A stretch of DNA of 38,812 nt from Bacteroidia bacterium Ga0077558 (GTDB taxonomy: Bacteria; Bacteroidota; Bacteroidia; Chitinophagales; Chitinophagaceae): NCBI GenBank assembly GCA_001464625.1, contig LNFJ01000084.1, positions 1 through 38,812 of the forward strand, given 5' to 3'. How positions within the stretch are numbered: position 1 is the first letter of the stretch; each line of letters begins with the position of its first letter. A model generated the notes under the pieces. That model did no database searches and was not told where the DNA came from. It was given only the letters and a program-made list of their open reading frames with translations. Made by a program: the position numbers and the translations under genes. Of the stretch, positions 36,042 to 37,670 are shown one piece after another.

Positions 36042-36073
36042 AAAAAAAGGTTAGAAAATTCTAACCTTTTTTT
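36042..36073. terminator. Bidirectional terminator between the secreted protein gene and tRNA-Leu
   Basis: Perfect 13-bp arms (36042-36054 and 36061-36073, core AAGGTTAG) with loop AAAATT. It has an A-run on the left and a T-run on the right, so it works on either strand. Confidence 0.92.
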
Positions 36074-36074
36074 G

Positions 36075-36158
36075 TGCCCAAGACTGGATTCGAACCAGCA
36101 CGCCGTTTCCAGCGCCACCACCTCAAGGTGGTGCGTCTACCAATTTCGCCACCTGGGC
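36075..36158 (-). tRNA. tRNA-Leu (anticodon GAG)
   Basis: An 84-nt class II tRNA on the minus strand. The acceptor stem GCCCAGG pairs with CTTGGGC (one G-U). The anticodon stem CCACC/GGTGG encloses loop TTGAGGT, giving anticodon GAG, which reads CUC and CUU. It has a long variable arm (GCTGGAAACGGC) and a T arm with GGTTCGAATCC. CCA is not encoded. A frameshifted GIY-YIG gene ends 7 bp before its 5' end, and its first 29 nt are duplicated 315 bp upstream. Confidence 0.97.
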
Positions 36159-36165
36159 ATTGCTA

Positions 36166-36401
36166 TCAGGATAAGGATCTGAGAAACTCTTTCCCTACAC
36201 CTGATTTCAAATATTTTTCTTTTACTCTGGCAGTAGTTCTATTAGGAAACTCCTCCATATAAATCAAAGTAAAAGGTTTGTACGTTTTGTCGATTTATTT
36301 TCGCCATTATTGTGCTCTGCAAATCTTCTTTGCACATCGTTGGTCATCCCTACATAAATGTAGTTTCTTAACGAGCTTCTTATTGCGTAAACAAATATCA
36401 T
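36166..36401 (-). pseudogene. Small GIY-YIG nuclease gene, broken by a 1-bp deletion
   Basis: On the minus strand, from ATG at 36399-36401, the frame reads MIFVYAIRSSLRNYIYVGMT and on to QRRFAEHNNGENKSTKR, the GIY-YIG fold with its VYA..YIYVG core and catalytic Arg, then shifts and stops early. In the next frame it continues KPFTLIYMEEFPNRTTARVKEKYLKSGVGKEFL to TGA at 36166-36168. Adding one base at the CGTACAAACC site restores a normal 78-residue protein (236 + 1 = 79 codons with stop). The family contains small structure-specific nucleases common in Bacteroidota. The gene is wedged between two copies of a tRNA-Leu segment, 7 bp from the intact tRNA. Confidence 0.88.
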
Positions 36402-36423
36402 ATTTCAAATTAAAGAACTTTTC

Positions 36424-36473
36424 GGTGCGTCTACCAATCCTGCCTGCCGGCAGGCAGGTTCGCCACCTGGGCA
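36424..36473 (-). repeat. Partial tRNA-Leu copy (30 bp) split by a palindrome
   Basis: Its two halves (36424-36438 and 36459-36473) join to a 30-bp sequence identical to 36130-36159. That is the first 29 nt of tRNA-Leu(GAG) plus one base upstream: the acceptor 5' strand, the D arm and the start of the anticodon stem. The rest of the tRNA is missing, so it is not functional. Both copies have the same orientation and bracket the GIY-YIG pseudogene. Confidence 0.9.
36439..36458. repeat. Perfect 20-bp G+C-rich palindrome
   Basis: CCTGCCTGCCGGCAGGCAGG, its own reverse complement, is inserted in what was the D-loop of the tRNA-Leu fragment. Removing it restores the tRNA sequence exactly, so it arrived as a precise insertion. 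A 21-bp relative with the same arms is in the polX-like gene. Confidence 0.9.
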
Positions 36474-36518
36474 ACCCATTCCTGAATTTCTCTGGAAGGA
36501 CTGCAAATGTAAAGGGTT

Positions 36519-37670
36519 TTACTTTTTCAGCACAATTCTAAACGTAGTTCCTTTACCGGCTTCTGATTTTTTTACAAAAATTTGTCCTTTATGATATTGT
36601 TGAATAATGCGGCGGGACAAACTAAGTCCCAGCCCCCACCCTCTTTTCTTCGTTGTAAATCCTGGCTTAAATACATTGGCAATATTTTGCTTGCTGATTC
36701 CTTTTCCGGTATCAGTTACATCTATTGTTAGATTCGCTTTTTCATCGTTAATATCCACCACTATCCTGCCCTTTCCTTCCATCGCATCCAACGCATTCTT
36801 TAATAAATTTTCAATTACCCAATCAAATAAAGGTGGTGATACCATTGCCAGTACTTCATCCTGTCCGAATGAATTCACAGTAAATACAATTTTACCCGCA
36901 GCCCTTTTCCGCATGTAATCAACCATACTATTTATCTGCTTCACTAAATTTATCTCTTCTAATTGTGGAGTGCTTCCAATTTTTCCAAAGCGGTCAGATA
37001 CCAATCGCAACCTGTCAACATCCTTTTCCAACTCTGCTACAATCTTTTCATTCCCCTTCGTTTCTTTCAACATTTCCACCCATCCTTCTAATGATGACAC
37101 GGGTGTCCCTAGTTGATGAGCCGTTTCTTTCGCCATACCTGCCCATACCTGGTTTTGTACGGAACGGTAATTACTGCGCAATGAAAGAAATACAATAACT
37201 ATAAAAAGAGCCACAATACATAACTGTACGATCGGATAGTATCTTACCTCAGCCAGCAATTTAGAATCTCCATAATAATATCGGTTGCGAATGGTAGGGT
37301 CTTTCGGATCCACCCACTCTATTTTTGGATTCTGCGATTTAAACTGTTTTAATTTTTTTTCAACATAGGCAGGATTATCAGCCGCTTTTGTTGAATCCAG
37401 ATTTACTGATTGAATGATGCTATCCGCCTCATTTGTTTCAATGATAGGAATTGTTTTATTCTCTGTAAGTATCATTGATGCGAGCCTTGTATCAGCATCA
37501 CCTGGTGAGTTGATCAGAAACTTTATCGCTTCGATCCACTGTTCCACTTTTTGCTTTTCTTCTTTGGCGATCTTACGGGCAAGGTATTGCGAGTAAAAAA
37601 CAGTGCCGGATACAATAAAGATTGCAACAATTGCCAATACTGTTCGTAAATTAAGTAGTTGCCGAAACAT
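36519..37670 (-). CDS. Membrane sensor histidine kinase
   Basis: A 383-residue kinase with two membrane helices (about 8-27 and 148-165) enclosing an extracytoplasmic sensor domain of about 120 residues. The dimerisation helix has KETAHQLGTPVSSLEGW (His185), a variant found in Bacteroidota kinases. The HATPase_c domain shows NLLKNALDAM, DTGKGIS and GWGLGLSLSRRIIQQYHKG. No HAMP domain is evident and no regulator gene is adjacent, so it is an orphan. It is divergent from the glycosyltransferase gene. Its stop is followed, after 45 bp, by the tRNA-Leu fragment. Confidence 0.93.
   Translation of the reverse strand: MFRQLLNLRTVLAIVAIFIVSGTVFYSQYLARKIAKEEKQKVEQWIEAIKFLINSPGDADTRLASMILTENKTIPIIETNEADSIIQSVNLDSTKAADNPAYVEKKLKQFKSQNPKIEWVDPKDPTIRNRYYYGDSKLLAEVRYYPIVQLCIVALFIVIVFLSLRSNYRSVQNQVWAGMAKETAHQLGTPVSSLEGWVEMLKETKGNEKIVAELEKDVDRLRLVSDRFGKIGSTPQLEEINLVKQINSMVDYMRKRAAGKIVFTVNSFGQDEVLAMVSPPLFDWVIENLLKNALDAMEGKGRIVVDINDEKANLTIDVTDTGKGISKQNIANVFKPGFTTKKRGWGLGLSLSRRIIQQYHKGQIFVKKSEAGKGTTFRIVLKK

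Follow-up and report, generated by a model that had tools for sequence, protein, structure and literature searches.

The systems closest to the element described here are the phage nuclease SegB and the mORFs of fungal mitochondria. SegB, from phages T4 and T6, is a free-standing GIY-YIG homing endonuclease whose gene adjoins tRNA genes without an intron, and the passages cited report that it cleaves within tRNA genes, furthers its own inheritance and brings about tandem amplification of tRNA and nuclease genes (PMC13096335, PMC2988022). A mORF, as outlined in the passage cited, is an endonuclease gene lodged in a host gene, with a copied end that completes the gene, the native end having been pushed beyond the insert (PMC3630166). 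On the evidence of these passages, GIY-YIG homing endonucleases at phage tRNA genes (PMC13096335, PMC2988022) and nuclease genes with regenerated ends in fungal mitochondria (PMC3630166) are already known. At mobA/gene 60 of T4, a 50-nt non-coding insert is thought, in the passages cited, to protect a split gene from an invading homing endonuclease (PMC5009743, PMC2988022).

We analysed a stretch of 38,812 nt, hereafter the window, from Bacteroidia bacterium Ga0077558 (contig LNFJ01000084.1). It probably holds a decayed copy of a small mobile gene resident in tRNA genes. The features concerned are:

36042–36073, minus strand: inverted repeat behind tRNA-Leu(GAG), two 15-nt arms, 100% complementary and 2 nt apart; a probable terminator
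36074–36158, minus strand: intact tRNA-Leu, anticodon GAG, called by ARAGORN
36166–36401, minus strand: GIY-YIG nuclease gene with a broken frame, matching PF01541; 236 nt long, with start and stop codons checked
36424–36473, minus strand: displaced tRNA-Leu 5' piece (tRNA nt −1 to 29) with the palindrome inside, defined by exact 15-nt blocks and alignment
36439–36458, no strand: perfect 20-bp palindrome CCTGCCTGCCGGCAGGCAGG in the D-loop of the displaced piece (GGCGAA^ATTGG)
36504–36511, minus strand: TACATTTG leader at the kinase-gene stop, facing the displaced piece; position checked
36519–37670, minus strand: sensor-kinase-like gene (a putative name), outside the element, whose homologues adjoin tRNA-Leu in the genus and which serves as syntenic anchor for the empty-site comparison

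Read along the minus strand, the order is kinase-like gene, TACATTTG, tRNA piece with palindrome, GIY-YIG stretch, tRNA-Leu(GAG) and inverted repeat. The TACATTTG leader, which we take to be promoter-like, or a close variant of it, stands at the same place in the relatives' kinase/tRNA-Leu(GAG) loci shown. The first 29 nt of tRNA-Leu(GAG), preceded by base −1, are found again upstream, in unchanged orientation, as two exact blocks of 15 nt (36459–36473 and 36424–36438), 314 and 294 bp from their counterparts in the tRNA. Apart from the palindrome, the displaced piece equals tRNA nt −1 to 29 at every letter, and its alignment to the window's tRNA scores 23.1, against at most 10.5 in 30 shuffles. 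An earlier note on this DNA had reported a 30-bp repeat of the tRNA 5' segment; the duplication and its orientation stand, and the upstream copy turns out to be split into two blocks by the 20-bp palindrome. The note's description of a plain upstream repeat was wrong, as the 50-bp span that it gave included the palindrome, on which its text was silent. Among displaced pieces this palindrome is the most regular trait.

The GIY-YIG gene does lie in the same orientation between the repeats, its last stop codon (36168–36166) being 7 bp from tRNA-Leu(GAG), as had been noted; it is also frame-broken, which had not been noted. The PF01541 match scores 44.1 bits against a cut-off of 22.6 and contains one internal stop. 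Residues 1–41 of the family profile (36401–36279) and residues 37–77 (36294–36172) fall in different frames, and the open frames of the two halves are 46 and 42 aa. The break could be real decay or a sequencing error. No integrase gene was found between the repeats, where there is only the GIY-YIG stretch of about 265 bp, and we therefore rejected an integrase-type tRNA-targeted island. A tRNA-borne group I intron with its endonuclease was rejected because the intact tRNA is contiguous: the nuclease gene is outside any intron or intein, and the adjoining tRNA is complete and uninterrupted.

In the genus the kinase gene adjoins tRNA-Leu(GAG). The tRNA starts at most 64 bp past the kinase stop in 19 of 26 loci, a count that leaves out L035 (genome G001), where the tRNA behind the kinase gene is inverted with respect to the other genus loci examined; in the window this distance is 363 bp. 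Because the relatives' tRNAs start near the kinase stop, the displaced piece marks the native tRNA start, and the nuclease stretch and a second tRNA start have been added. The insertion between repeats envisaged in the earlier note thus exists as added material; it lies between the piece, which keeps the native position, and the present tRNA start. The comparison with gene-less relatives that the note proposed yielded empty tRNA-Leu(GAG) sites. The note had also regarded gene-less genomes that keep the upstream tRNA fragment as evidence against insertion, and such cases were found in part: G004, G028, G032 and G027 carry the tRNA piece and palindrome with the gene absent (read by eye). Because G010 keeps a stump at the same locus, a GIY-YIG-like 3' end alone (read from its translation), we infer that these four are remnants of lost units. 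Downstream of tRNA-Leu(GAG), the locus seen in L036, L037 and L038 has repeated tRNA 3' ends with no nuclease gene between them, L036 with a palindrome-like insert.

The same tRNA can bear the gene on either side. The GIY-YIG gene lies on opposite sides of tRNA-Leu(GAG) in G000 and G033; in G033 it stands beyond the tRNA, and behind it comes a 3' tRNA piece whose T-loop holds a palindrome. The G033 flank past this piece matches the G021 flank past the tRNA with a score of 56.5 (shuffle maximum 23.0), and its comparisons with three other relatives did not rise above their own shuffles. A second locus, tRNA-Leu(CAA), likewise has empty sites by eye: the G021 flank before the displaced piece resembles the flank directly before the tRNA in L296, L298, L305, L317 and L318, among which only L305 has in the examined stretch a gene matching A1, our six-protein alignment of the nuclease.

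The pattern, of which the window offers a decayed example, is widespread and recurs in several phyla. Within the genus we collected 76 loci from 42 genomes, among the matches listed, with open frames below 200 aa; one match at a contig end (G031:C429:27-146) was left out, and a UvrC-fragment-like locus (L147) is still counted. A tRNA is present at 45 of these 76 listed loci, and none was called at the other 31, many of them from another clade. In 41 of the 45 the tRNA lies within 120 bp of the nuclease domain; these close cases cover 15 isotypes, and the tRNA comes first in 31 and the gene in 10. A scan with A1 of one genome per species, from which 80 of 217 matches were kept, gave matches named as Bacteroidota, candidate phyla of Patescibacteria, Ignavibacteria, Balneolaceae and Omnitrophota; 73 of the 80 kept loci have a tRNA within 500 bp, a tRNA-Leu every time. 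After removal of six duplicates, 68 of 74 loci have a tRNA. Among 148 Bacteroidota genomes A1 was matched in 49, and 30 loci were retrieved, of which four were dropped as duplicates and 24 of the remaining 26 have a tRNA; 20 further stretches stand outside these counts. Close relatives occur in Bacteroidota and Patescibacteria.

Of 176 de-duplicated small GIY-YIG loci taken together (genus, Bacteroidota and other phyla), 137 include a tRNA gene within the stretch retrieved. In all 137 the closest tRNA shares the strand of the nuclease, whether it comes before or after, and in 120 it is at most 120 bp from the nuclease domain. Large GIY-YIG genes, the sole control for adjacency, have a tRNA at none of nine loci. 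Assembly artefact was rejected as a general cause, since palindrome-bearing pieces occur in isolates of Ekhidna lutea, Flavobacterium orientale, Dawidia soli and Mucilaginibacter psychrotolerans. A near phage source was also rejected: 11 phage records match one of the proteins, all below 60% identity. The phage record inspected has no tRNA annotated within the 3.2 kb shown.

A partial copy of the local tRNA lies on the far side of the nuclease, above shuffles, in 120 of the 135 loci with a usable flank; the other 15 testable loci have none above shuffles. The piece is the 5' part of the tRNA where the gene precedes the tRNA and the 3' part where it follows. In tRNA-Leu loci the piece matches its own tRNA at least as well as that of any other locus, in 36 of 36 gene-first loci (identity 0.991 to its own tRNA versus 0.787 to other loci) and 30 of 30 tRNA-first loci (0.992 versus 0.692). 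This local likeness would reflect either origin on site or recombination that keeps the copies alike. The earlier suggestion of a small nuclease-linked element at tRNA genes is well supported by the concentration of small GIY-YIG genes there, the usual far-side copies and the existence of empty sites, and the search of relatives that it recommended, for such genes beside tRNAs and for bracketing partial copies, found both repeatedly. Its notion that tRNA 5' ends are the general target has to be given up, as 31 of the 41 close genus cases have the tRNA first and the displaced piece, where found, is the 3' part.

Intact relatives of the nuclease are about 78–100 aa long, with little beyond the nuclease domain (a 78-position model), and PF01541 scores among genus relatives reach 70.8 bits. 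The invariant columns of A1 include Y5, Y16, G18, R26, H30 and E62, whose catalytic roles we presume by analogy. When four representatives were scanned against family collections, only the tRNA-Leu type gave matches, namely two PHROG homing endonuclease families and, below threshold, an NCBIfam group I intron endonuclease; no family named SegB was among the matches of the four. Similarity over the full length of SegB, with a DNA-binding region, was not found in these proteins, which are about as long as the nuclease model. The nearest solved structures by sequence are UPF0213 proteins of similar size, deposited as hypothetical (PDB 1ywl, E 3.5e-7; 1zg2, E 1.4e-5), and an intron-associated endonuclease matched weakly (E 0.037). 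The median dN/dS of 0.13, from 40 usable of 60 pairs that are not independent and in part come from clades without a tRNA, indicates purifying selection on the nuclease.

The nuclease tree comprises 169 of the 176 rows, L147 and rows shorter than 50 residues, the window's included, having been left out. On it tRNA isotype changes 28 times, compared with at least 45 in 200 shuffles, and the side of the tRNA 22 times, compared with at least 34 in shuffles; neighbouring Asp genes, and likewise Pro genes, lie on either side of their tRNA. Some GIY-YIG frames (L119, L084, L102, L085) extend into the tRNA or the displaced piece, with some end residues encoded by tRNA sequence.

A second clade of small GIY-YIG genes, a single block in the drawn tree, has no tRNA near and lies among REP-like hairpin repeats (L018, L019, L020, L096, L097, L099, L101, L104, L117, L127, L132, L133, L141). 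An exact word of at least 16 nt is common to both flanks in 7 of the 18 loci tested, compared with 0 of 8 controls.

Most displaced pieces carry a hairpin. A stem of at least six pairs inside the piece, absent from the tRNA, was found in 95 of 120 pieces (12.4% in shuffles) and one of at least eight pairs in 45 of 120 (0.8%); 25 of the 120 have no hairpin of six pairs. We use the inside-only figure of 95; counting to 25 bp past the piece gives 101, terminators included. Insertions of 16–30 nt number 102 in 79 loci, and 68 of them, in 61 loci, are palindromic by a threshold that we chose; 53 of the 68 are exactly 20 nt long and 28 are exactly CCTGCCTGCCGGCAGGCAGG. In the alignments no tRNA base is lost at any of the 102, and only 8 of the 68 palindromic insertions fall inside tRNA stems, which make up 46% of positions. 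The hairpin of the tRNA-Leu clade is mostly a palindrome of about 20 bp, cleanly inserted in a tRNA loop. In other clades the hairpin seemingly replaces an arm, as with TCCGCC..GGCGGA in tRNA-Met pieces and TCCCG..CGGGA in Ala, Lys, Arg and Asn pieces. Across the nuclease tree hairpin class changes twice, as few times as three classes allow, compared with at least 13 times in shuffles; this test covers 81 rows, pieces of other or no class being left out, and the classes were set after inspection of the pieces. Inheritance along with the unit could account for a clade-wide class. Because the sites of insertion within the tRNA differ, repeated insertion of hairpins is likely.

Within the window, CCTGCCTGCCGGCAGGCAGG is the sole match at up to two mismatches and was expected 0 times in 100 shuffles; the window's genome has eight exact copies. 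At L001:1350-1560 there is, by eye, a palindrome copy between a tRNA-Leu-like 5' stretch and a putative truncated Y1 transposase gene. In the window's genome, within a dense tRNA array (L003:720-842), a degenerate tRNA that ARAGORN does not call has, by eye, a near-palindrome CCTGCCTGCCGGCATAGGCAGG in its T arm. Elsewhere the palindrome is nested in other repeats away from tRNA, in G071 (L324-L330) mostly at GCGAGG^AATC of a GTCATTCCGAGC repeat and in G162 at L334 and L337-L339. Because it nests in this way, the palindrome may itself be a mobile unit.

Our preferred reading, which we consider fairly likely, is that a minimal free-standing homing-type nuclease gene inserts at tRNA genes with tRNA-derived arms and leaves behind an intact tRNA and a hairpin-tagged remnant. 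The nuclease would cut tRNA genes lacking the unit, and repair would insert a copy of the gene by using the intact tRNA and the displaced piece as homology arms; the host would survive because one complete tRNA remains. Units would then multiply in tandem, and in the window the nuclease frame would since have been lost. In L276 two units of piece, palindrome and gene precede one tRNA-Leu(CAG), in L273 three units, identical at 323 of 323 positions, precede one tRNA-Ser(UGA), and in L272 there are eight nuclease genes, with tRNA-like pieces between those shown and no tRNA called.

Several points sit uneasily with homing-type insertion. The intact tRNA of G021 is identical at 85 of 85 positions to that of G033, G058 and G061, where no A1-type gene was found within the 3 kb examined; because it has neither insert nor substitution, donor immunity is left unexplained, and a protective substitution in the intact tRNA was rejected in this one case compared. 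Isotype specificity is likewise unexplained, because hardly anything of the protein lies outside the nuclease domain. Isotype changes, at 28, are still frequent, which counts against this reading. So do the loci without a piece above shuffles, the pieces without a six-pair hairpin and the genus loci at which no tRNA was called. Displaced pieces are mostly interrupted by a hairpin, and the intact tRNA is unchanged in the single case compared. If insertion is of the homing type, the hairpin might protect the displaced arm, either by destroying the nuclease site or by interrupting a direct repeat that would delete the gene; we put this forward tentatively, at rather less than even likelihood.

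An alternative that we find unlikely is a two-part mobile system of minimal GIY-YIG nuclease and cognate palindrome, in which the nuclease of each clade would make or place its own palindrome class in the loops of displaced pieces and the two would spread together as a novel type of mobile DNA, dispersed palindromes being by-products. The exact 20-mer is present in 13 of 148 Bacteroidota genomes, and the A1 nuclease in 10 of these 13 compared with 39 of the 135 without it (p = 0.0009; common descent is not corrected for, and some of the palindromes lie inside the units themselves). In G162, G166 and G196 the 20-mer is present with no match to A1.

It is doubtful that the arrangement arose by local tandem duplication of a tRNA end, through slippage or unequal crossing-over, followed by chance capture of a GIY-YIG gene and later decay. 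Such duplication would explain why the pieces copy the local tRNA, and L036, L037 and L038 provide a locus (by eye) where tRNA 3' ends are repeated without the nuclease gene. Chance capture, however, would not be expected to give one strand in 137 of 137 loci, isotype and hairpin class that follow the tree, or purifying selection.

The palindrome itself could have a separate origin. REP elements are short palindromes dispersed in bacterial genomes, with which RAYTs are associated, and the palindrome might be a REP-like element moved by a Y1 (REP-associated) transposase, for which the displaced piece is simply free DNA to land in. Its presence away from tRNA pieces, sometimes within other repeats, and the putative Y1 gene adjoining the copy at L001 fit this idea. 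We nevertheless consider it improbable, and rejected Y1 transposase as driver, because there is no association across genomes: of the 13 genomes that have the palindrome, 10 contain Y1_Tnp, as do 81 of the 135 others (p = 0.37), and G071, with 12 copies, has no Y1_Tnp at E 1e-8. That hairpin class follows the nuclease tree also argues against it. Dispersed palindromes are common to REP/RAYT systems and to the element described here, which differs in showing no association with Y1 transposase genes.

A benefit to the host, by raised tRNA dosage or by restoration of tRNAs cut by anticodon nucleases, as for SegB in phage T6, is very improbable; tandem arrays beside tRNAs recall the T6 tRNA-segB repeats described in the passage cited (PMC13096335), but in L273, L276 and L277 the nuclease units are repeated beside a single intact tRNA, and dosage is not raised because only that one is present. 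Least credible is that the unit inserts in homing fashion and the hairpin prevents the displaced piece from misfolding with the intact tRNA in a shared transcript, an idea prompted by their closeness on one strand and rejected because predicted native tRNA pairing hardly changes in 90 loci (0.343 as is, 0.340 with the hairpin removed and 0.328 with it shuffled in 48 gene-first loci; 0.294, 0.279 and 0.271 in 42 tRNA-first loci) and because insertions avoid stems, the most disruptive places.

If homing-type insertion is correct, many small GIY-YIG proteins of Bacteroidota and other phyla would be parasites of tRNA genes, with palindrome-bearing tRNA pieces as their footprints; for annotators, a partial tRNA or a frame-broken GIY-YIG gene next to a tRNA may then be what is left of such an element. 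Two questions become testable, namely how a protein of about 80 residues stays with a single tRNA isotype and what puts the same 20-bp palindrome in tRNA loops across phyla. Our searches of the open-licence literature brought up no account of such an element on bacterial chromosomes, of insertion on either side of the tRNA or of hairpin tagging, and a search there for the palindrome sequence or for REP with GIY-YIG found nothing relevant.

Compared with SegB, as far as the passages cited go, the element shares an intron-free GIY-YIG nuclease gene beside tRNA genes and differs in its bacterial chromosomal rather than phage location (PMC13096335). The displaced hairpin-bearing piece is not mentioned for SegB in those passages (PMC13096335, PMC2988022); SegB loci show no isotype preference, whereas each clade here mostly stays with one, and amplification in T6 repeats the tRNA too, whereas arrays here keep it single (PMC13096335). 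T4 gene 60 likewise has a short non-coding insert (PMC5009743, PMC2988022), but mobA encodes an HNH nuclease and is a single case with the insert in a functional gene, whereas here it lies in the displaced piece and the intact tRNA is without one (PMC5009743). As in mORFs, so far as the passage describes them, a host-gene end is duplicated around the nuclease gene, with the end regenerated and the native one displaced beyond the insert (PMC3630166). mORFs occupy protein genes and their completing end is often foreign (PMC3630166); the element here occupies tRNA genes in both orders, with hairpins in the displaced end, and no foreign completing end was found, piece and tRNA matching locally and the G021 tRNA equalling that of its relatives. 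It looks like a mobile gene of a seldom-described sort, one that takes up residence in tRNA genes yet spares them, and would, if so, be the chromosomal bacterial counterpart of phage SegB and fungal mORFs.
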